Of a stretch of 64,000 nt of DNA, positions 44,499 to 52,648 are shown in pieces. A program made the position numbers and the translations under genes. The stretch is from contig JACOST010000006.1 in the NCBI GenBank assembly GCA_016178705.1, positions 1-64,000 on the forward strand, read 5' to 3'. The notes beneath the pieces are model-generated. The model was not told where the DNA came from. It worked only from the letters and a program-made list of their open reading frames with translations, and ran no database searches. Position 1 is the stretch's first letter. Each line of letters begins with the position of its first letter. Origin of the DNA: Deltaproteobacteria bacterium (GTDB lineage Bacteria; Desulfobacterota; Binatia; HRBIN30; JACQVA1).

Positions 44499-47400
44499 TC
44501 ATCGAAAGTCATGCGACTTGGGCAGAGTAGCAGGTTGTTCGTTGCTAAGTTGTTGGTTGTTAGGTTCCGATGCGGGCGTCACGCGCATGCGATAGCCGTG
44601 GCCAGCTTGCGTGATGACTTGCTGCGGAATCTCCAGCTTGGTGAAGCGCCGCGCTCTCACATGGATGACGTATTGGGGGTCGGGGGTCGGGGATCGGGGG
44701 TCGGCACCAACCTCTAACCCCTGGCTCCTAACCCCCGCACCCACTTTCTGCAGCGGGCCTTCGACCTGCAACAGCGCCGCTGTGTGGATCAGCGCGCGGT
44801 GGCGCTGGAACATGTCGGGCACGACGACGGCGTTGGCCGTGCCGGTTTCGTCTTCAAGCGTGAGAAAACAAAATCCCTTCGCCGTGCCCGGTCGCTGGCG
44901 CACGATCACGAGCCCGGCGATTTTCGCCCAACTCCCAGCGCGCGCGCGCTTGAGATCACTCGCGCGCAACACACCCGCACGCGTCAACTCGTCGCGTAGG
45001 TACGTCATGATGTGCGGTCCAGTCGTGAGACCGGTGCCGGCGTAATCGGCGAGAGTGCGGTCCATTGGCGACATGGTGGGAAGGGGGTTCGGGGTTACGG
45101 GGTTAGGGGTTAGGGGTTCGGAAGCAAGGACTGGATGAGGCGGTTCAGAAGTCTTGCCACTGAGTTCACCTGCGCCGAGAGCGGCGCGACGGCTTCTTGC
45201 CGAACCAACCCTATTTCCACGATCAGGATCAGGTAGGTCTCCAACTCGCGCAGGCTCCCCTGCGCGATGCGAAGGAAGCTGACATAATCCTTTCTCGTCC
45301 CCCTCCCGTTCCCTTCGGCGATGTTGGCCGGAACCGAAACTGCCGCCCGGCGGATCTGACTGGTCAGACCGTACAATTCTTCCTTCGGAAAACTCTTCGT
45401 CAGAAAGTAACAGTCGCGGGCCAGATCCATCGCCTGGCGCCACACGAGCAGTTCGCGAAACCCCCGTTCCTTGCGTCCTTCCATAACTCTCCTCCTTCAA
45501 TGCTAGGGGGCTAGGGGTTAGGGGGTTGGGGGTTAGGGGTCCCTCTCCGCCCCTAACCCCGTAACCCCCTAACCCCGTAACCCCTAGCCGCGCGAACAAC
45601 GGCTCGCGCGAGATGGCCGCTGTCTGCCACAACGCTTCGCGACGAGTGAGGCCGAACGCGGTGAACGCGCCGATGTGCGCGAGCGTCTGCACTTCAGCCT
45701 CGCGCAGACCGCAGCGATGGATGACGTCGGTGATCGAACTGAACGGCGCACGTGCTCTTTCTTCCGCGATGCGTTTACCGGCGTCCGCGCGCAGGTTGGA
45801 AACAAAGCGCAAGCCCAAGCGGAGACACAACGGCTTCTCTCCGCCCCTAACCCCATAACCCCCTAACCCCATAGCCCCTTGCTCCAACTGGCAACGCCAG
45901 TTGGAGCGCGTCACGTCGATCGGCAGCACACGCACGCCGTGGCGTTGGGCGTCTTTGATGATGGTGGCGGGGTGATAGAACCCCATCGGCCAGTTGTTCA
46001 GCAGGGCGCAGGTAAACGCCGCCGGGTGATGCGCGCGCAAGTACGCCGACGCGTATGCCAGCAGCGCGAAGCTGGCGGCGTGACTCTCCGGAAAGCCGTA
46101 GAGCGCGAACGACGTGATGCTGCGCACGATGTCGTCGGCCTTCTTGCCGACGATGCCCTTGGCCGTCATGCCGGCGCGCAGTCGCGCCTCGATCTGCTGC
46201 ATGCGTTGCGTCGAGCGCTTGAAGCCCATCGCGCGCCGCAACTCTTCGGCTTCACCGCCAGTGAAGCCGGCCACCGTCATCGCCATGCGCAGGAGCTGCT
46301 CTTGAAACAGCGGCACGCCCAACGTGCGCTTCAAAATCGGTTCGAGTTCGGGGTGCGCATAGGTCACCGGCTCGCGGCCGTTGCGGCGGTTCAGATACGG
46401 ATGCACCATCTGCCCGACGATCGGGCCTGGGCGAATGATCGCGACCTCGACGACGAGATCGTAAAAGCGTTCCGGCTTCATGCGCGGCAGTGTCGCCATC
46501 TGCGCGCGGCTCTCGACTTGAAACACGCCGATGGTGTCGGCGCGTTGCAGCATGCCGTACACGGCGGGATCGTCCTGCGGCAGATGCGCGAGATCGATGT
46601 CGCGGCCTTCGTGCTCGCGCACCAGCGGAATCGTCTCTTCCAGCACCGCCATCATGCCGAGCCCGAGCAGATCGACTTTGATGATGCCGAGGTCGGCGCA
46701 GTCGTCCTTGTCCCACTGCACGACGACGCGTCCGGGCATCGACGCGGGTTCGAGCGGGACCACGCTGTCGAGCCGTCCCGCCGCGATCACCATGCCGCCG
46801 GAATGTTGGCCGAGATGACGCGGTAGGTTCTGCATCTGTCCGACCAGATCGACGAGCAGCGCGACGCGCGGAGCGGTGGGGTCGACGCCGCCGGCGCGGA
46901 GTTGCTTCGCCAGCTCGTCCATGTCGTCACGGAACTCGAAACGGTTGAGCAGCTTCGACAGCTTGGCCACTTGTTCGAGGGTGAAGCCGAGCGCTTTGCC
47001 GACTTCGCGCACGGCGCTGCGGGTGCGGTAGGTGATGACGTTGGCGGTCATCGCCGCGCCCCGTTCGCCGTAGCGTTGGTAGACGTACTGGATGACGCGC
47101 TCGCGCTGATCGCCGCTCGGCAGATCGATATCGATGTCGGGCCACTCACCGCGCTCTTCGGAGAGAAAGCGCTCGAACAGCAACTCCATGCCGACGGCGT
47201 CGACGGCGGTGATGCCGAGCGCGTAACACACCGCCGAGTTGGCGGCCGAGCCGCGGCCTTGCGCGAGGATGCGCTGCTCGCGGCAGAAGCGGACGATGTC
47301 CCACACGATCAGGAAGTAACCGGCGAGGTCGAGCTTGCCGATGATCGTCAGCTCGTGTTCGAGTTGGCGGCGGACTTTCTCGGTGAGGTGTCCGTAGCGC

Positions 47401-48413
47401 TCGCCCGCGCCGGCGTAGGTGAGCTGGCGCAGGTGACCGTGCATCGTTTCACCCGGCGGCAGCGGAAAATCGGGAAAGCGATAGCCGAGATCGGCGAGCG
47501 TGAACTCGCACTGCTCGGCGATGCGCTGCGTGTTGTTGACGGTCTGCGGCAGATCGCGAAAGAGCGCGGCCATCGCCTGCGGTGACTTGAGATGACGCTC
47601 GGCATTCTTCAGCAAGCGACGGCCAGCGGCATCGAGCGTGGTCTTCTCGCGGATACAGGTAAGCACGTCGAGCAGCGGCCGTCCTGCGGGCGTGGCGTGG
47701 CGCACGTCGTTGGTGGCGACGAGCGGAAGCCGGCAGTGTTCGGCGAGCGCGATCAGGGTGCGATTGAGCCGTTCTTCGTCGGCATCGAGATGCCGCTGAA
47801 GTTCGAGGTAGAGGCGATCGGGGAAGAGACGCTTCAAGAGAAGGGGGTTAGGGGTTAAGGGGCTAGGGGTTAGGCGGCCCTCTTCTCCGACCCTAACCCC
47901 ATAACCCCGTAGCCCCTTAACCCCTTGGAGCTGGGCTGCGGTGGGGCGGAAAAGACAGATGAGGCCGTCGGTGCGGCCATCGAGATCATCCCACGTTACG
48001 ACCGCCTCGCCCTTCGGCGCGCGTAGCTTCGCCTGCGTGAGGAGCTGGCAGAAATTCTGGTAGCCGGTGCGATTGGCAACGAGCAGATACAGGCTGTTAG
48101 GAGCTAGGGTGCTAGCTGTTAGGTTGTTAGCTGTTAGGGGAGGAGGGGGAACCCTAGCCGCGTAACAGCCTAACAACGTAACAACCTGCATTGTGACTTC
48201 ACACCCAATCAACGCGCGTACCCCGGCTTGCTGTGCGGCTTTGTGAAAGCGCGGCGCGCCGTAGACGCCATCGCGATCGCCGAGCGCTATGGCCGCGTAA
48301 TCGAGTGACGCCGCGCGCTCGATCAGATCTTCCGGCAGCGACGCACCGGCGAGAAAGCTGAACGCGCTGCGGCAGCGCAACTCGACGTACGCGGAGAACC
48401 CTTCCTCAGTCAT
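44499..48413 (-). CDS. dnaE2: Error-prone DNA polymerase DnaE2/ImuC with multiple in-frame insertions
   Basis: 1304 residues versus about 1050-1080 for the family. I chose ATG 48413 (GGGGGAG upstream), overlapping imuB. PHP domain: YVELRCRSAFSFLAGASLPE; polymerase core: WPDIDIDLPSGDQRERVIQY and HLGQHSGGMVIAAGRL; C-terminal OB fold: GLVIVRQRPGTAKGFCFLTL. It is the lesion-bypass polymerase of the ImuA-ImuB-DnaE2 mutasome. The excess length comes from at least five palindromic-repeat insertions that keep the frame, one of which encloses a whole separate gene (45110-45484). Activity with these inserts is uncertain. Confidence 0.88.
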   Translation of the reverse strand: MTEEGFSAYVELRCRSAFSFLAGASLPEDLIERAASLDYAAIALGDRDGVYGAPRFHKAAQQAGVRALIGCEVTMQVVTLLGCYAARVPPPPLTANNLTASTLAPNSLYLLVANRTGYQNFCQLLTQAKLRAPKGEAVVTWDDLDGRTDGLICLFRPTAAQLQGVKGLRGYGVRVGEEGRLTPSPLTPNPLLLKRLFPDRLYLELQRHLDADEERLNRTLIALAEHCRLPLVATNDVRHATPAGRPLLDVLTCIREKTTLDAAGRRLLKNAERHLKSPQAMAALFRDLPQTVNNTQRIAEQCEFTLADLGYRFPDFPLPPGETMHGHLRQLTYAGAGERYGHLTEKVRRQLEHELTIIGKLDLAGYFLIVWDIVRFCREQRILAQGRGSAANSAVCYALGITAVDAVGMELLFERFLSEERGEWPDIDIDLPSGDQRERVIQYVYQRYGERGAAMTANVITYRTRSAVREVGKALGFTLEQVAKLSKLLNRFEFRDDMDELAKQLRAGGVDPTAPRVALLVDLVGQMQNLPRHLGQHSGGMVIAAGRLDSVVPLEPASMPGRVVVQWDKDDCADLGIIKVDLLGLGMMAVLEETIPLVREHEGRDIDLAHLPQDDPAVYGMLQRADTIGVFQVESRAQMATLPRMKPERFYDLVVEVAIIRPGPIVGQMVHPYLNRRNGREPVTYAHPELEPILKRTLGVPLFQEQLLRMAMTVAGFTGGEAEELRRAMGFKRSTQRMQQIEARLRAGMTAKGIVGKKADDIVRSITSFALYGFPESHAASFALLAYASAYLRAHHPAAFTCALLNNWPMGFYHPATIIKDAQRHGVRVLPIDVTRSNWRCQLEQGAMGLGGYGVRGGEKPLCLRLGLRFVSNLRADAGKRIAEERARAPFSSITDVIHRCGLREAEVQTLAHIGAFTAFGLTRREALWQTAAISREPLFARLGVTGLGGYGVRGGEGPLTPNPLTPSPLALKEESYGRTQGTGVSRTARVAPGDGSGPRLLLSDEEFSEGRIVRSDQSDPPGGSFGSGQHRRREREGDEKGLCQLPSHRAGEPARVGDLPDPDRGNRVGSARSRRAALGAGELSGKTSEPPHPVLASEPLTPNPVTPNPLPTMSPMDRTLADYAGTGLTTGPHIMTYLRDELTRAGVLRASDLKRARAGSWAKIAGLVIVRQRPGTAKGFCFLTLEDETGTANAVVVPDMFQRHRALIHTAALLQVEGPLQKVGAGVRSQGLEVGADPRSPTPDPQYVIHVRARRFTKLEIPQQVITQAGHGYRMRVTPASEPNNQQLSNEQPATLPKSHDFR
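44674..44737. repeat. G-rich/C-rich palindrome in dnaE2 (OB-fold region)
   Basis: GGGGGTCGGGGGTCGGGGAT... followed by CCTCTAACCCCTGGCTCCTAACCCCCG. It inserts ~22 in-frame residues (VGAGVRSQGLEVGADPRSPT) between LQVEGPLQK and YVIHVRARRF. Confidence 0.85.
45077..45120. repeat. GGGGTTAGGGGTTA array, left arm around the nested gene
   Basis: Plus-strand GGGGTTACGGGGTTAGGGGT TAGGGG. It is complementary in reverse to the C-rich arm at 45543-45590. The stop codon of the nested gene lies inside it. The repeat is telomere-like and could form G-quadruplexes. Confidence 0.85.
45110..45484 (-). CDS. Four-helix-bundle protein (23S rRNA IVS/S23 family), nested in dnaE2
   Basis: 124 residues with its own perfect SD (AGGAGG, 6-bp spacing). 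FRELLVWRQAMDLARDCYFL, TSQIRRAAVSVPANIAEGNG and DYVSFLRIAQGSLRELETYL are diagnostic of the four-helix-bundle family encoded by 23S rRNA intervening sequences and by related elements. It lies on the same strand as dnaE2 but in another frame; the dnaE2 frame stays open across all 375 bp. It is enclosed by complementary repeat arms. The gene looks intact. Confidence 0.92.
   Translation of the reverse strand: MEGRKERGFRELLVWRQAMDLARDCYFLTKSFPKEELYGLTSQIRRAAVSVPANIAEGNGRGTRKDYVSFLRIAQGSLRELETYLILIVEIGLVRQEAVAPLSAQVNSVARLLNRLIQSLLPNP
45503..45590. repeat. G-rich then C-rich (CTAACCCC) array, right arm around the nested gene
   Basis: GGGGTTAGGGGGTTGGGGGT TAGGGG is followed directly by CCCCTAACCCCGTAACCCCC TAACCCC, forming a hairpin on its own; the C-rich half also pairs with the left arm at 45077-45120 to bracket the four-helix gene. 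Confidence 0.88.
45843..45880. repeat. CCCCTAACCCCATAACCCC array in dnaE2 (single arm)
   Basis: Only the C-rich arm is present. It inserts GAMGLGGYGVRGGEK in frame between WRCQLEQ and the following LRLGLRFVSN of dnaE2. Confidence 0.8.
47841..47930. repeat. GGGGTTA/TAACCCC palindrome in dnaE2
   Basis: GGGGGTTAGGGGTTAAGGGG then CCCTAACCCCATAACCCCGT. It inserts ~30 in-frame residues (GVKGLRGYGVRVGEEGRLTP...) between FRPTAAQLQ and KRLFPDRLYLELQ. Confidence 0.87.
48094..48187. repeat. GTTAGCTGTTAGG / CCTAACAACGTAACAACC palindrome in dnaE2
   Basis: A second repeat family, T-rich words in one arm and AAC words in the other. It inserts ~32 residues (VVTLLGCYAARVPPPPLTAN...) in frame between ALIGCEVTM and LYLLVANRTGYQ of the PHP domain. 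Confidence 0.87.
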
Positions 48414-49917
48414 ACTCCCCCGCCACGAACCACTGCTGCCGATCGTGGAACACGCGATACACGCCGCCGTCGCTGAGTTGGACGTCGTAGTAGTCGCGCC
48501 GGTACGCGCCGTCGTGCCACCACTCGCCAGTAATCCGCCACGGGCCGGCACACGAGACGACTCGGCCACTCACGCCATCGCCGCGCACGAACGCGAGCCG
48601 CCCGCGATCGCAGTGCACCTCCAGCGGCCGCGGTGGACGAATGGCGCGCAGCGCAAGGGGAAGAAGGTTGTTAGCTGTTAGGTTGTTGGTTGTTAGGCCG
48701 GATTCCGAGCTGGCCCCTTCTTCCCTAACAACGTAACAGCCAAACAACGTAGCAACCTTCACCCCGTACGCTTCCGGCCGATGCGTATCGATGACCGCCG
48801 GTGTGCCGACGTGATCGGCGCCGCACAACGCGGTGAGCCGAGCCAACGTCACCGCCAAACGCTCCGGTGCGGGGCCGTTGGGACGGAAGAGATCGAGTTG
48901 GATCGTGCGCAAGCGCTCGGGCACGACGCCGACGCGGATCGTTTCGACCGGCGCAGCGGGTGGTTGTGCTTCGAGGTGTAAACGCACGAGGGTGAGCAAC
49001 GCCTTCACGTCGTTGCTCGCGGCGACGACGACGGTGCGATCGTCGCGCGCGCGATTGGTGAGACCGAGCGACAGCCGCAGATCGCCACACACCAGACCGC
49101 GTACCGCCAGGCGCGCCGTCAGTCGATCGAGTAGGCCGCGCAGGACGAACGTCAGCGGCTCGATGGTTTCGATGCCGTAGTCGAGTTCGACACTCTCTTC
49201 GAACTGCAACGGTGCGGAGCGCGGCACCAGCGGTTGCTCGTCTTCGCCGCGCGCGCGCCGGGCCAAGGCCAGTCCCTCTGGACCCAGCCGCGTACCGACC
49301 GCGCTGGCCGGCAATGCCGCCAAGTCGCCGATGCGCTGAATCCCCCAGCGTGTCAGCGTGGTGCGCAGCGCTGGGCTTGGCGCCAGCAAACTCACCGCGA
49401 GTGGCGCCAAGTAGGCCCACTCTTCGTTCGCTGGCACGACAGTGACACCGCCGCCGTTACGCGCGGCGAGGTAGGCGGCGATTTTCGAGCCGGCCACGCC
49501 AACCTGCGCAGATAGTCCGACGTGTTCCGCGCGCACCGCCAGCATGTGGGCGAGTTTGGCTTCGCTGTCGAACAACGCGGCGGAGCCAACGATGTCGAGA
49601 TACACTTCGCCGTCGCTCGCTTCCTCGACCCGCGGTGAAAACGAGTACGCGACGTCGGCGAGCGCCGCTTGGGCGGCCCGCCGGCCGTCGCGTGAAGTCG
49701 CGCGCGTAATCAGTGCGGCGAAGATCGCGTGCGCTTGCCCCGCACTGAGTCCGGTGGTGATGCCGCGGCGCGCGGCGGCGGCGGACATCGCTACAATGGT
49801 GGCGCGCGGTCCGCTCCCGTCGGTGACGATCACCGGCTCGCCGCGCAGCTCCGGCTCGCTGCGCAGCATTGCCGCTAATGGAAAGTCGGGAACGAAAAGA
49901 CAGGCGAGACGGGACAT
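48406..49917 (-). CDS. imuB: ImuB, inactive Y-family polymerase-like mutasome subunit
   Basis: 503 residues. N-terminal MSRLACLFVPDFPLAAMLRS and the palm/finger pattern RGITTGLSAGQAHAIFAAL are ImuB-like; the catalytic carboxylates of true Y polymerases are not conserved. ImuB links DnaE2 to the sliding clamp. A TTAG/CTAA palindrome near the C-terminus adds ~30 residues (LFGCYVVREEGASSESGLTT...). It starts 6 bp after imuA and its stop overlaps the dnaE2 start. Confidence 0.88.
   Translation of the reverse strand: MSRLACLFVPDFPLAAMLRSEPELRGEPVIVTDGSGPRATIVAMSAAAARRGITTGLSAGQAHAIFAALITRATSRDGRRAAQAALADVAYSFSPRVEEASDGEVYLDIVGSAALFDSEAKLAHMLAVRAEHVGLSAQVGVAGSKIAAYLAARNGGGVTVVPANEEWAYLAPLAVSLLAPSPALRTTLTRWGIQRIGDLAALPASAVGTRLGPEGLALARRARGEDEQPLVPRSAPLQFEESVELDYGIETIEPLTFVLRGLLDRLTARLAVRGLVCGDLRLSLGLTNRARDDRTVVVAASNDVKALLTLVRLHLEAQPPAAPVETIRVGVVPERLRTIQLDLFRPNGPAPERLAVTLARLTALCGADHVGTPAVIDTHRPEAYGVKVATLFGCYVVREEGASSESGLTTNNLTANNLLPLALRAIRPPRPLEVHCDRGRLAFVRGDGVSGRVVSCAGPWRITGEWWHDGAYRRDYYDVQLSDGGVYRVFHDRQQWFVAGEYD
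48665..48760. repeat. GTTAGCTGTTAGG / CCTAACAACGTAACAGCC palindrome in imuB
   Basis: Same family as the element at 48094 in dnaE2. The arms lie at 48665-48698 and 48724-48758. The insertion keeps the imuB frame. Confidence 0.85.
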
Positions 49918-49923
49918 GGCGGC

Positions 49924-50643
49924 TCAGGCCAAAGCTGAAAGCAAAAAGCTGACAGTCGGAACAGCTTTCAACTGAACGCTTTCGGCGCTGCGTGTCGCGT
50001 TGAGTTTGGTGCGGGCCACCGTGAGGTGGAGCTGCATCCCATCGAAGAGTGGCCAGGCGCCACCGCTCCAATGGCTGCGGGCGGTCAGCGTCAGACTCAG
50101 CGCAGCGAAGCTGCCGGCCAGGCGGTGATCGGCGACGATGGCAAGTGCGGCGTCGCTGCGCCGCGCGGCCTGAGCCAGGCGAGGCCACACCGGGGCGCGC
50201 AGTGGCCGGTGATGGGATGCCGCGCCGATATCGACGGCGATGAAGCCGAAGCCGCCAGCTTCGAGCAACAGTTCCGTGCACCGCAAAGCCGCCGGGAGCG
50301 ACGGCGGGCGCACCCACAACAGCCGCGTCAACTCGATACCCGACGCGTGCGCGGTCGCGGGGTGCAAGCAGTCTGGAAGATCAATGAGCGCCGTCACCTC
50401 ACCGCGTTGAGTGGCCGCTGCCAAGCACGCCAGCAGCACGGACGTCTTGCCCGAGGTGACGGGCCCGGTGAGTTCGGTGAGGCGTCCGCGCGGCAAGCCG
50501 CCGTCGAGCGCCGCGTCGAGTCGCGGCAATCCGGTCGCGAGCCGCCGCACCGGCGGGTCGGCCACACCCACTCGCACCGTACCGGGGAGCGTGAGCGCAG
50601 CGAGCAGACGGCGAGCGTCACTGGGTGAGGTGGAGGCCAGCAC
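49924..50643 (-). CDS. imuA: ImuA, RecA-like mutasome protein
   Basis: 239 residues from a GTG chosen because the frame upstream loses similarity. GLPRGRLTELTGPVTSGKTS is a RecA-like P-loop (Walker A GPVTSGKTS), followed by VTALIDLPDCLHPATAHASG and RLLWVRPPS as in ImuA. It helps ImuB-DnaE2 in SOS mutagenesis. The last ~18 codons derive from a GAAAGCTGAAAG-type repeat (49926-49985), so the C-terminus is unusual. No recognisable LexA box was found upstream; a divergent promoter region of ~240 bp separates it from the metalloprotease. Confidence 0.82.
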   Translation of the reverse strand: MLASTSPSDARRLLAALTLPGTVRVGVADPPVRRLATGLPRLDAALDGGLPRGRLTELTGPVTSGKTSVLLACLAAATQRGEVTALIDLPDCLHPATAHASGIELTRLLWVRPPSLPAALRCTELLLEAGGFGFIAVDIGAASHHRPLRAPVWPRLAQAARRSDAALAIVADHRLAGSFAALSLTLTARSHWSGGAWPLFDGMQLHLTVARTKLNATRSAESVQLKAVPTVSFLLSALA

Positions 50644-50887
50644 GCGTGAATCTTCGCTTAATTTTCGCTTTCGATCAAGTGGACGCAAGCGGCGATGAAG
50701 ATCAGGCAGGCCGCATAGCGAAATCCTCCGCGCACATTGTCGCCGTCGTTGTCTGCGTAACGCATCGACGGCGCGATCATCCCCGCTCGCATTTCGGGAA
50801 GAGCGTTCCGTCCATGGCACCTGCGTCGCGTACTGGCACATGAGTTGCGTCTTCGCCGCGCCACTCAAGGGAAGCGAGGTCCGCGTG

Positions 50888-52648
50888 ATGTTGGTGTGGT
50901 GGCGAGTGGGACAGATTCTGGTGATGACGATCGCGCTCTCGCTGGTCGCGGTGCCTTCGGTTCGCTGTGCGACTTTCGTTGTCACCAGCGATCAGCAGCT
51001 TGCGGCGGCGGCCGATGTTGTAGTGCTCGGTCGCGTCGAACAACTGCGCAGTGAAACGACGGCCACGGGTGCGATCGCCACGTTCGTCACGCTCAGCGTT
51101 ATCGAAGCACTGAAAGGCGAGGTGCCGGCATCCCTCGAGGTGCGCGTGCCGGGCGGTGCGGTCGACAACGTACGGCGGATCGTTGCCGGAGCACCGAGCT
51201 ACACAGCGGGCGAGCGCGTGATGGTGTTTCTGCAGCGCCGGGCCGACGGGACGTTCGAGTCGGTGGCGCTGGCGCTCGGAACCTATCACGTCACTGGTGG
51301 CGACGCGGGCGATGAGCAGCTCATGCGCTCCCTCGGAGACGGGGCGATGGCCTTCGAGCCGTCGGCCGGTCGATTGCGTCGTGCCAGCACGCACACCACG
51401 CGATCGCTGCGCGGGTTGCGGCAGATCATCGAGCAGGCTGCGCGTGACACGTACCAGCCGGGCAGCATTGTTCCGGCTCCGACGCCAATTGGCCACATCC
51501 CCATGCACTACATCTCATTGGGCCCTCCCGCGGCGCGCTGGAGCGAGCCGGACAGCGGAACACCGATTCCGTTTCTGATTGATCCGGCCGGTGATCCCGA
51601 TATCGGCGCAGCCGCATCCGTGGCTGCGGCGCGCGCCGCGTTGACGGCATGGAGTGGGCAGGAGTGCTCCGGTTTGCGACTCACCGATGGCGGCGACGCG
51701 GTGCCGGCGCCGTTCGGGGCGTGCGACGGTCATAGTCAGATCATTTTTGGTGATCCCTTCGGCGAAGTGCCGCCGCCGATCGGGTGCAGCGGCATCGTGT
51801 CGACCGGCGGCTTCTGCGCGGTGTCTGATCCGGTTTCGATGGTCGGCGGCACCAGCTTCGAAACCATCATCGAGGGAGACGTGGTGGTTAACGATGGCTT
51901 TGCGGCGTGCAATTTCTGGACGGCGGAGAATCTCGCCGAGATGCTCACGCACGAGTTGGGGCATGCCCTCGGCTTCGGCCATAGCTCGGAGAATCCCGCC
52001 GAGGCAGACGAACGGCTGCGCAATGCCACCATGTTCTTCGGCCGCCACTTCGATGGCCGCGGCGCCACCATCGAAGCCGACGACATCGACGGAGTGTGTG
52101 CGGTCTATCCGCACCGACAGGCGGCGCCCGATGGCGATGGCGACGGGGTGCCTGACGCGGACGACAACTGTCCGGCCGTGGCGAATCCGGATCAGCACGA
52201 TCGCGACCAAGACGGCGCCGGCGATGCCTGTGATCCGCTCACGGTGCGCCGCGTGATGGTGCGCTATGCGACCGGGTCGGGCGATCATTTGCAGGTCTCG
52301 GGCACCGTCGTGCCGCCTGATGGCTTCGATCCCGCGCGCGATACCGTGCGCGTCGCGCTGATGTTGCCGGAAGGGGCCGTCTATCAGGCCTCGATCCCGC
52401 CGGGGTCGTGGGTGCGCAGCCGTGATGGTCAGCGCTGGCGGTTGCGGAGAGAGCCGCGCAACGAGGTGCGGCGCTTCCGCTTACATCGCCGTGGCGATCG
52501 CCTCGTCTTCGAAATGACCGCGTGGCCACACAACTTGAGTCGCGCGCGCTCGCAACCAGTGAGTGTGACGGTGACGCTGCGCAACGCGGCCACTAATAGC
52601 CCGACCCCGCTGCACAGCCGCAACGATGGGATGTTGGTGTTCCCGTAG
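50888..52648 (+). CDS. Secreted matrixin-like zinc metalloprotease with thrombospondin type-3 repeats
   Basis: 586 residues from MLVWWRVGQILVMTIALSLV, a signal peptide ending near VRCATF. The zinc site is HELGHALGFGH (H355, H359, H365 with catalytic E356), the HExxHxxGxxH of metzincins. Residues ~416-445 (DGDGDGVPDADDNCPAVANP, DQDGAGDACDP) are thrombospondin type-3 Ca-binding repeats, and a ~135-residue C-terminal domain follows. It is extracellular or periplasmic. Substrate unknown. Confidence 0.85.
   Translation: MLVWWRVGQILVMTIALSLVAVPSVRCATFVVTSDQQLAAAADVVVLGRVEQLRSETTATGAIATFVTLSVIEALKGEVPASLEVRVPGGAVDNVRRIVAGAPSYTAGERVMVFLQRRADGTFESVALALGTYHVTGGDAGDEQLMRSLGDGAMAFEPSAGRLRRASTHTTRSLRGLRQIIEQAARDTYQPGSIVPAPTPIGHIPMHYISLGPPAARWSEPDSGTPIPFLIDPAGDPDIGAAASVAAARAALTAWSGQECSGLRLTDGGDAVPAPFGACDGHSQIIFGDPFGEVPPPIGCSGIVSTGGFCAVSDPVSMVGGTSFETIIEGDVVVNDGFAACNFWTAENLAEMLTHELGHALGFGHSSENPAEADERLRNATMFFGRHFDGRGATIEADDIDGVCAVYPHRQAAPDGDGDGVPDADDNCPAVANPDQHDRDQDGAGDACDPLTVRRVMVRYATGSGDHLQVSGTVVPPDGFDPARDTVRVALMLPEGAVYQASIPPGSWVRSRDGQRWRLRREPRNEVRRFRLHRRGDRLVFEMTAWPHNLSRARSQPVSVTVTLRNAATNSPTPLHSRNDGMLVFP

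Follow-up and report, generated by a model that had tools for sequence, protein, structure and literature searches.

S23 genes framed by mirror-image repeats suggest an overlooked class of bacterial mobile element

Introduction

How does a complete gene for a four-helix-bundle protein come to lie inside the gene for an error-prone DNA polymerase that stays open throughout, and what are the complementary repeats on either side of it? This question is raised by dnaE2 in the 64,000-nucleotide stretch of DNA analyzed here (the window), where the nested gene belongs to the S23 family. Members of this family are encoded by intervening sequences (IVSs) of rRNA genes, which have been known since 1990, and as PMC4990558 presents it, the S23 protein is still without an established function. 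In Coxiella, the 23S IVS forms a 28-bp stem that is cut by RNase III and has tandem heptamers ahead of the S23 ORF (PMC4990558), and insertions in the 16S and 23S rRNA of CPR bacteria are reported to carry an ORF for the same intervening-sequence protein, IVP (PMC11270868). An initial annotation of the window accordingly likened the nested gene to an IVS and proposed that it might be a mobile element associated with palindromes. Here, we trace the anatomy of the locus, its recurrence in other genomes and its effect on the genes in which it sits, and we weigh the explanations that have been offered for each.

Results

The S23 gene and its repeat arrays within dnaE2

The features of the locus are as follows, in window coordinates.

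44499 to 48569, minus strand: host ORF dnaE2 (error-prone polymerase), open through the element, counted from the first GTG of the ORF, with the true start probably further in
45110 to 45484, minus strand: S23 / 23S rRNA-IVP four-helix-bundle gene, 124 aa plus stop (PF05635, TIGR02436)
45491 to 45496, minus strand: Shine-Dalgarno AGGAGG of the S23 gene, 6 nt 5' of the ATG, read from the sequence
45082 to 45117, plus strand: array A, downstream arm, GGGGTTA-type units on the plus strand
45502 to 45540, plus strand: array B, oriented like A, directly upstream of the S23 gene, pairing with array C
45550 to 45591, minus strand: array C, outer upstream arm, CCCCTAA-type on the plus strand, complementary to A and B
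45844 to 45879, minus strand: gene-less dnaE2 array of the same heptamer, with the same CTCTCCG core ahead of it as array C
47843 to 47925, no strand: gene-less GGGGTTA/CCCCTAA palindrome within dnaE2
44670 to 44736, no strand: GGGGGTC array and a short TAACCCC pair near the dnaE2 3' end

As the initial annotation had it, a complete S23 gene with its own consensus ribosome site lies on the same strand as dnaE2, one frame away, while the dnaE2 frame runs through it without a stop. In profile searches, its protein scored 130 bits against PF05635 (cut-off, 33.8) and 127 bits against TIGR02436, and its nearest solved sequence is 2gsc, XCC0516. The unit spans about 510 nt including the gene; S23/IVP was the only family that the profile searches recognized in that gene, and they returned no transposase, reverse transcriptase (RT) or recombinase for the unit. 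The profile of Avd gave 24.5 bits against a cut-off of 80, i.e., below Avd level. Within dnaE2, the insert falls between a match to HHH_6 and a match to the OB-fold, the latter just under its cut-off. Directly upstream of dnaE2 stand imuA-like and imuB-like genes (48406-50985), and the ImuB-like protein has an in-frame array of its own (LTTNNLTANNL).

The flanks of the gene had been expected to pair over some 30 bp. They do pair, over 24 nt at 92% or 42 nt at 76%, but the minimum-energy RNA fold (z -4.4) prefers a local hairpin between arrays B and C to arm-to-arm pairing. Array B (45502-45540) was absent from the initial annotation; B and C pair across a loop of 10-11 nt as a tight local palindrome. 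Array C is G-rich on the strand of the S23 gene, and a similar CTCTCCG/CTTCTCCG core precedes three C-type arrays.

Repeat arms accompany S23 genes in many bacteria

The same genome has seven places over the S23 family cut-off in a profile search, L006 and L008 being counted as one split gene. Inverted arrays of units of about 7 bp flank all seven, with a different heptamer at each. The lag-7 threshold was reached by 14/14 of their flanks versus 0/40 flanks of 20 PIN genes, with the end of the split copy L006 placed to cover both pieces, and the inverted test was passed by 7/7 S23 loci versus 0/20 PIN loci. The PIN genes came from relatives, and 10 of 30 PIN loci were left out because contig ends cut them. 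Four-helix genes lacking repeat flanks elsewhere in the genome had been named as evidence against the proposal; every copy over the threshold is flanked, and the sub-threshold matches L009 and L010 have no repeat arms. The expectation that other copies would be flanked by GGGGTTA thus held for the presence of repeats and failed for their sequence, and we reject GGGGTTA as a signature of the element: it is a local heptamer only. The split gene L006/L008 is broken into two frames yet retains its arms.

In all, arms (an inverted score of at least 14, or arrays on both sides) accompanied 110 of the 142 S23 copies tested, namely 78/104 in a first set and 32/38 in a second; the remaining 32/142 had none by these tests. 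The second set consists of loci from relatives that were not picked by similarity to the window gene, drawn from 40 over-cut-off places that had not yet been given a locus, with weaker remaining places left out. Loci with a flank shorter than 150 nt were omitted (5/109 and 2/40, respectively), as were sub-threshold PF05635 matches (L009 and L010 in the window's genome, L032-L036 in relatives); L031, which is over the cut-off, entered the comparison with the PIN control and was left out of the 78/104 set. In the inverted test that was set against the PIN control (0/20), 16/22 loci of relatives and 54/76 of named species had inverted arms. Out of 583 named-species loci, the 80 that matched the window family best were used, so the share of armed or nested copies among them may not hold family-wide. 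In these 80, lag-7 passes were concentrated in the adjacent flanks (75/157) relative to two positions farther out (3/149 and 3/145), and inverted scores of at least 14 occurred within a locus in 54/75 cases, between loci in 7/900 and in distant flanks in 0/69. On these sequence comparisons, arm heptamers are mostly private to each locus, matched within and rarely between loci.

The unit length is mostly 7 bp (107 flanks), with 8 bp in 21 flanks and 9 bp in 5. On the gene strand, 95/109 loci have a G-rich upstream arm (71/77 in the first set, 24/32 in the second) and 5/77 and 7/32 a C-rich one, the polarity being weaker in the second set. Seven of eight S23 loci on cyanobacterial plasmids are armed, some near-identical to one another, and one has no arms. 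In two Acidobacteria, the S23 gene apparently lies between pheS and pheT on a reading of the flanks (L099, L132), with arms that differ (8 and 9 bp), and in a contig of a Methanophagales archaeon (L126), the S23 gene is followed by a CTAAACC-like stretch that is below the test threshold. We regard the anatomy of the S23 element, and its generality, as nearly certain.

Host genes stay open through the element

Fifteen copies lie within long host ORFs that read through the unit: 12 in DNA methylases, 2 in dnaE2 and 1 in a NOV_C helicase, the nested state being assigned by homology rather than by open runs alone. The methyltransferases are of the Eco57I, PglX, MmeI-like, N6_N4 and DUF1156 types, and the hosts of L015 and L143 were assigned as such by homology to L110. 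The weakest host call is L071 (a Pfam match under its cut-off, with homology support on both sides); another weak one is L123, where, some 500 nt upstream of the unit, the reading frame of the methylase changes through either a real frameshift or an assembly error. At L073, the upstream host part is in another frame. Among 109 loci searched, no relative of the first 15 candidate hosts was broken inside the unit. Most S23 loci were not seen nested in a host gene. On the S23 tree, the nested state requires 11 changes, at least 7 of them forced by well-supported branches; it therefore arose or was lost repeatedly. On one contig (G001:C170), a NOV_C helicase and a DUF1156 methylase are neighbors, each with an S23 unit in frame (L302, L304), and this gene pair is perhaps a defense locus.

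Because nested copies were mostly recognized by openness, synonymous shuffling of the S23 genes provides the fairer evidence. Among 139 genes, 29 have an open +2 frame where about 6 would be expected, under a shuffling that disregards neighboring-codon effects; in three subsets, the counts are 9/37, 8/28 and 12/74 versus 2.5, 2.1 and 1.2 expected. For 102 S23 genes, 20 had the +2 frame open versus 3.5 +- 1.7, and none the +1 frame versus 0.4. Such an excess favors translation through the element over its excision from RNA. Since the element is in frame inside genes, reading of the host protein can continue across it, and it is very likely that host genes are indeed translated in this way. The S23 gene is under apparent selection to keep its host open in a second frame, repeatedly in DNA methylases.

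Empty sites and copies with unrelated flanks

The site of the insert in dnaE2 was compared among relatives, leaving aside loci L052 and L053, which had been displayed out of frame. Genome G007, which belongs to the same order but to another family, has an S23 gene at the same site; this gene and that of the window are each other's best match (67%; clade support, 100/89). The array in G007 is of TTGTTAG and is plainly kept on the downstream side alone (inverted score, 7). Both genes are open in the dnaE2 frame, and differences between them are most numerous at third codon positions in the S23 frame (64 vs 36 and 30), with a dN of 0.31 and a dS of 1.50, near saturation. The site is without an array in six of the relatives compared (G003, G004, G006, G010, G011 and G046) and has gene-less in-frame arrays of other heptamers in G005, G009 and G014, and, by eye, in G013; G005 and G009 also carry gene-less palindromes at a neighboring dnaE2 loop. 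In one methylase, the unit stands in place of a short stretch after GEPDI; two homologues carry it and six, 65-70% identical, do not.

Some genomes hold two copies in unrelated surroundings. L325 and L326 are 92% identical over 543 nt and L302 and L304 72% over 439 nt, both pairs with unrelated flanks and with similarity that ends at or beyond the arms. Other pairs are less uniform: L297 and L298 match at 79% over 418 nt with an upstream arm that does not align, L305 and L309 have only the gene in common, and L334 and L336 have some 470 nt in common beyond the gene. The empty sites in relatives, together with some of these same-genome copies with unrelated flanks, lend support to the view that the unit moves as a whole, and we consider it quite likely that the element is a mobile unit. 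No clear target duplication was found, and none was visible by eye at the GGGGACC palindromes described below; on either side of the L325 unit lies a direct repeat, about 55 bp long and adjoining a run of N, which is either a target duplication or an assembly artefact. Searches of genus mates for the empty sites of L018 and L015 returned no orthologous flank, just dispersed arrays and short matches, and searches for empty sites of the plasmid loci found none.

Gene-less palindromes with the ends of gene-bearing ones

Arm repeats also recur away from S23 genes. When 12-mers of the arms were sought in 464 kb of the window's own genome with the S23 locus masked, recurrence was strong for L004 and L007, less so for L002 (partly from other arrays within dnaE2), at most nine counts for L001, L003 and L005, and none for L006. 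The control, 75 arms of other genomes, had a median of 0 and a mean of 2.4 with a few reaching 17-21, so that L001, L003, L005 and L006 fall below the top control arms (up to 21 counts). The heptamer of the window locus recurs mainly inside dnaE2, and the other S23 heptamers genome-wide.

Exact arm 14-mers were counted in their own genomes: 81 in Pseudoxanthomonas (77 of them outside the source S23 locus), 47 in Anabaena (30 outside) and 8 in Thiobacillus (5 outside). The four further genomes searched in each case had none, except for 3 of the Anabaena repeat in Pseudoxanthomonas, and reversed 14-mers gave 0, 0 and 1. The 81 GGGGACC 14-mers of Pseudoxanthomonas, whose genome has three S23 genes, fall in 28 places by our count. 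Fifteen of these were fetched, chosen to include visible pairs: nine have exact heptamers in both orientations, all with the G-arm first, and six in one orientation only. Six of the eight gene-less two-armed palindromes share both ends with the S23-bearing L342, namely CGGGACC(GGGGACC)n and (GGTCCCC)nGGTCCCG, and in L341 and L345 one end differs.

The 16 genomes that have S23 contributed 1047 kb with 30 lag-7 arrays, and the 15 that have no S23 over the cut-off contributed 590 kb with none. If the window's own genome is left out, nine arrays remain in 583 kb, spread over 4 of 15 genomes, and six of those nine share a single 20-kb stretch of a G018 contig bearing two S23 genes. G004, which has no S23 match, carries single arrays (L200, L202) of the GCGAGTG-type heptamer found in its genus, the heptamer that arms the S23 gene of G006, and a strict dependence of arrays on an S23 gene in the same genome is thereby rejected. 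The host methylase of L018 has a gene-less palindrome of the S23-arm heptamer about 600 nt upstream.

Discussion

Taken on its sequence features, the locus probably represents an S23-bearing palindromic element, in which a four-helix-bundle gene occupies the loop of inverted arrays of 7-9-bp repeats. The suspicion that it was mobile and tied to palindromes is supported by the gene-less in-frame arrays at the dnaE2 site, the copies with unrelated flanks and the shared ends in Pseudoxanthomonas. As for how such an element might spread, the S23 protein is a relative of Avd, probably pentameric, and could bind its arms as RNA or single-stranded DNA, helping them copy into new places, with gene-bearing copies acting on behalf of gene-less ones. 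Quasipalindrome correction proceeds by template switching within a hairpin, and the same process would keep the arms of a locus matched while slippage shifts the number of units. In the window, dnaE2 would simply carry the element as an extra stretch between its HHH domain and OB-like region. Whether S23 itself drives the spread we judge to be evenly balanced.

Several known systems resemble the element in part. With the 23S rRNA IVS it shares an S23/IVP protein whose ORF lies between complementary arms that form a stem; however, the IVS sits in an rRNA gene, whereas the window element sits in dnaE2, S23 units elsewhere also lie between genes, and, unlike the IVS, the S23 element stays in frame and has gene-less copies dispersed in the genome. 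The IVS comparison of the initial annotation is thus right in architecture, while excision is disfavored, being both unsupported and not needed. REP/REPIN sequences and their RAYT genes comprise one or a few gene-bearing copies and many gene-less palindromes of the same sequence per genome. Dispersed gene-less palindromes that match the flanks of the gene are likewise found for S23 in Pseudoxanthomonas, but the RAYT gene encodes an HUH/Y1 transposase where the unit has S23, and S23 arms, unlike REPINs, are tandem 7-9-mers with several families possible per genome. Avd of diversity-generating retroelements is a distant relative of S23, and the window unit has neither an Avd-level match nor an RT.

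Rickettsia palindromic elements (RPEs) are palindromic insertions of about 150 bp that are kept in frame in unrelated protein genes (PMC10969869). The S23 element is likewise an in-frame palindromic insertion in protein genes, although an RPE is read in the host frame and has no further gene, whereas the S23 unit adds a gene in another frame. The S23 element is therefore organized like RAYT/REPIN and tolerated like an RPE and belongs in full to neither. Its arms also resemble heptamer repeats of Xanthomonas (GGGAATC, 70-75 inverted pairs per genome) and Nostoc (GGGGA(C/T)T), all being G-rich heptamer arrays; these repeats were described in a study of G-quadruplexes whose account apparently gives them no origin and whose main text never mentions S23 or a helix bundle (PMC4692102). 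The link that we draw to them comes from Pseudoxanthomonas and other genomes rather than from Xanthomonas itself. Among open-access papers, we found none on S23 genes with repeat arms outside rRNA and none that joins IVS S23, heptamer repeats and REPIN-like or RPE-like elements.

Other readings of these observations differ in what they make of the S23 protein and of the arms. A true IVS-like RNA element, whose arms pair in the dnaE2 transcript so that RNase III excises the unit and S23 is a passenger, would account for the protein family, the ORF-in-stem anatomy and the stable fold (z -4.4), and it has a precedent in the stem and heptamers of the Coxiella 23S IVS (PMC4990558). We nevertheless hold it to be improbable: the +2 frame is kept open, which is useless to a cut mRNA and speaks against excision as the main mechanism, and the local B/C hairpin in the window competes with pairing between the arms. 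Moreover, the cut pieces of 23S rRNA stay together in the ribosome, a scaffold that an mRNA lacks. If heptamer arrays act as landing sites, host recombination between them could instead move the element, and S23 would be a passenger whose own task lies elsewhere, for instance in binding nucleic acids or regulating the host gene. This would fit the gene-less arrays of relatives at the same dnaE2 site, the palindrome upstream of L018 in its host methylase, the order A-gene-B-C in the window, which resembles a gene plus an array added to a complete palindrome, and the arrays that G004 retains without S23. Against it stands the confinement of lag-7 arrays, in the sequence compared, to genomes with S23 over the cut-off, a contrast that suggests a link in trans and that shrinks once the window's own genome is removed; we consider host recombination with S23 as a passenger unlikely, though well within consideration.

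Two further readings dispense with a mobile unit or give the arrays a different purpose. If the arms were ordinary slippage repeats, with S23 genes merely tolerating or attracting heptamer microsatellites, the free variation in unit number and sequence, the single arrays in G004 and the six of 15 GGGGACC places with exact heptamers in a single orientation would follow naturally. The inverted pairing private to each locus, the prevailing polarity, the ends shared by gene-less and gene-bearing palindromes and the same-genome copies with unrelated flanks would not, and this explanation appears quite improbable. DNA methylases are a class known for phase variation, and 7 is not a multiple of 3; hence, arrays in methylase and polymerase genes might act as phase-variation switches, as the many methylase hosts and the frame change upstream of the unit at L123 could suggest. 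However, the arrays are imperfect, so that slippage should be slow, the search of host relatives found no frame-broken copy inside the unit (albeit with nested copies mostly recognized by openness), and nesting was not seen for most S23 loci. We deem such switches very improbable.

Returning to the S23-bearing palindromic element, our results suggest that S23 genes framed by mirror-image repeats in many bacteria are an overlooked class of mobile element. In its fullest form, which we offer tentatively and at somewhat less than an even chance, S23 proteins would be the agents of a widespread and undescribed bacterial class, each multiplying its own heptamer-armed palindrome, gene-less copies included, with the gene-bearing form residing in frame in genes that are hard to lose, above all DNA methylases, and selected to keep a second frame open. 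The arms, their polarity, the shared ends and the in-frame nesting link the S23 protein of IVSs to heptamer repeats, and both thereby become testable. If S23 proteins are such agents, this would explain the heptamer repeats of many bacteria and, with them, the function of S23.
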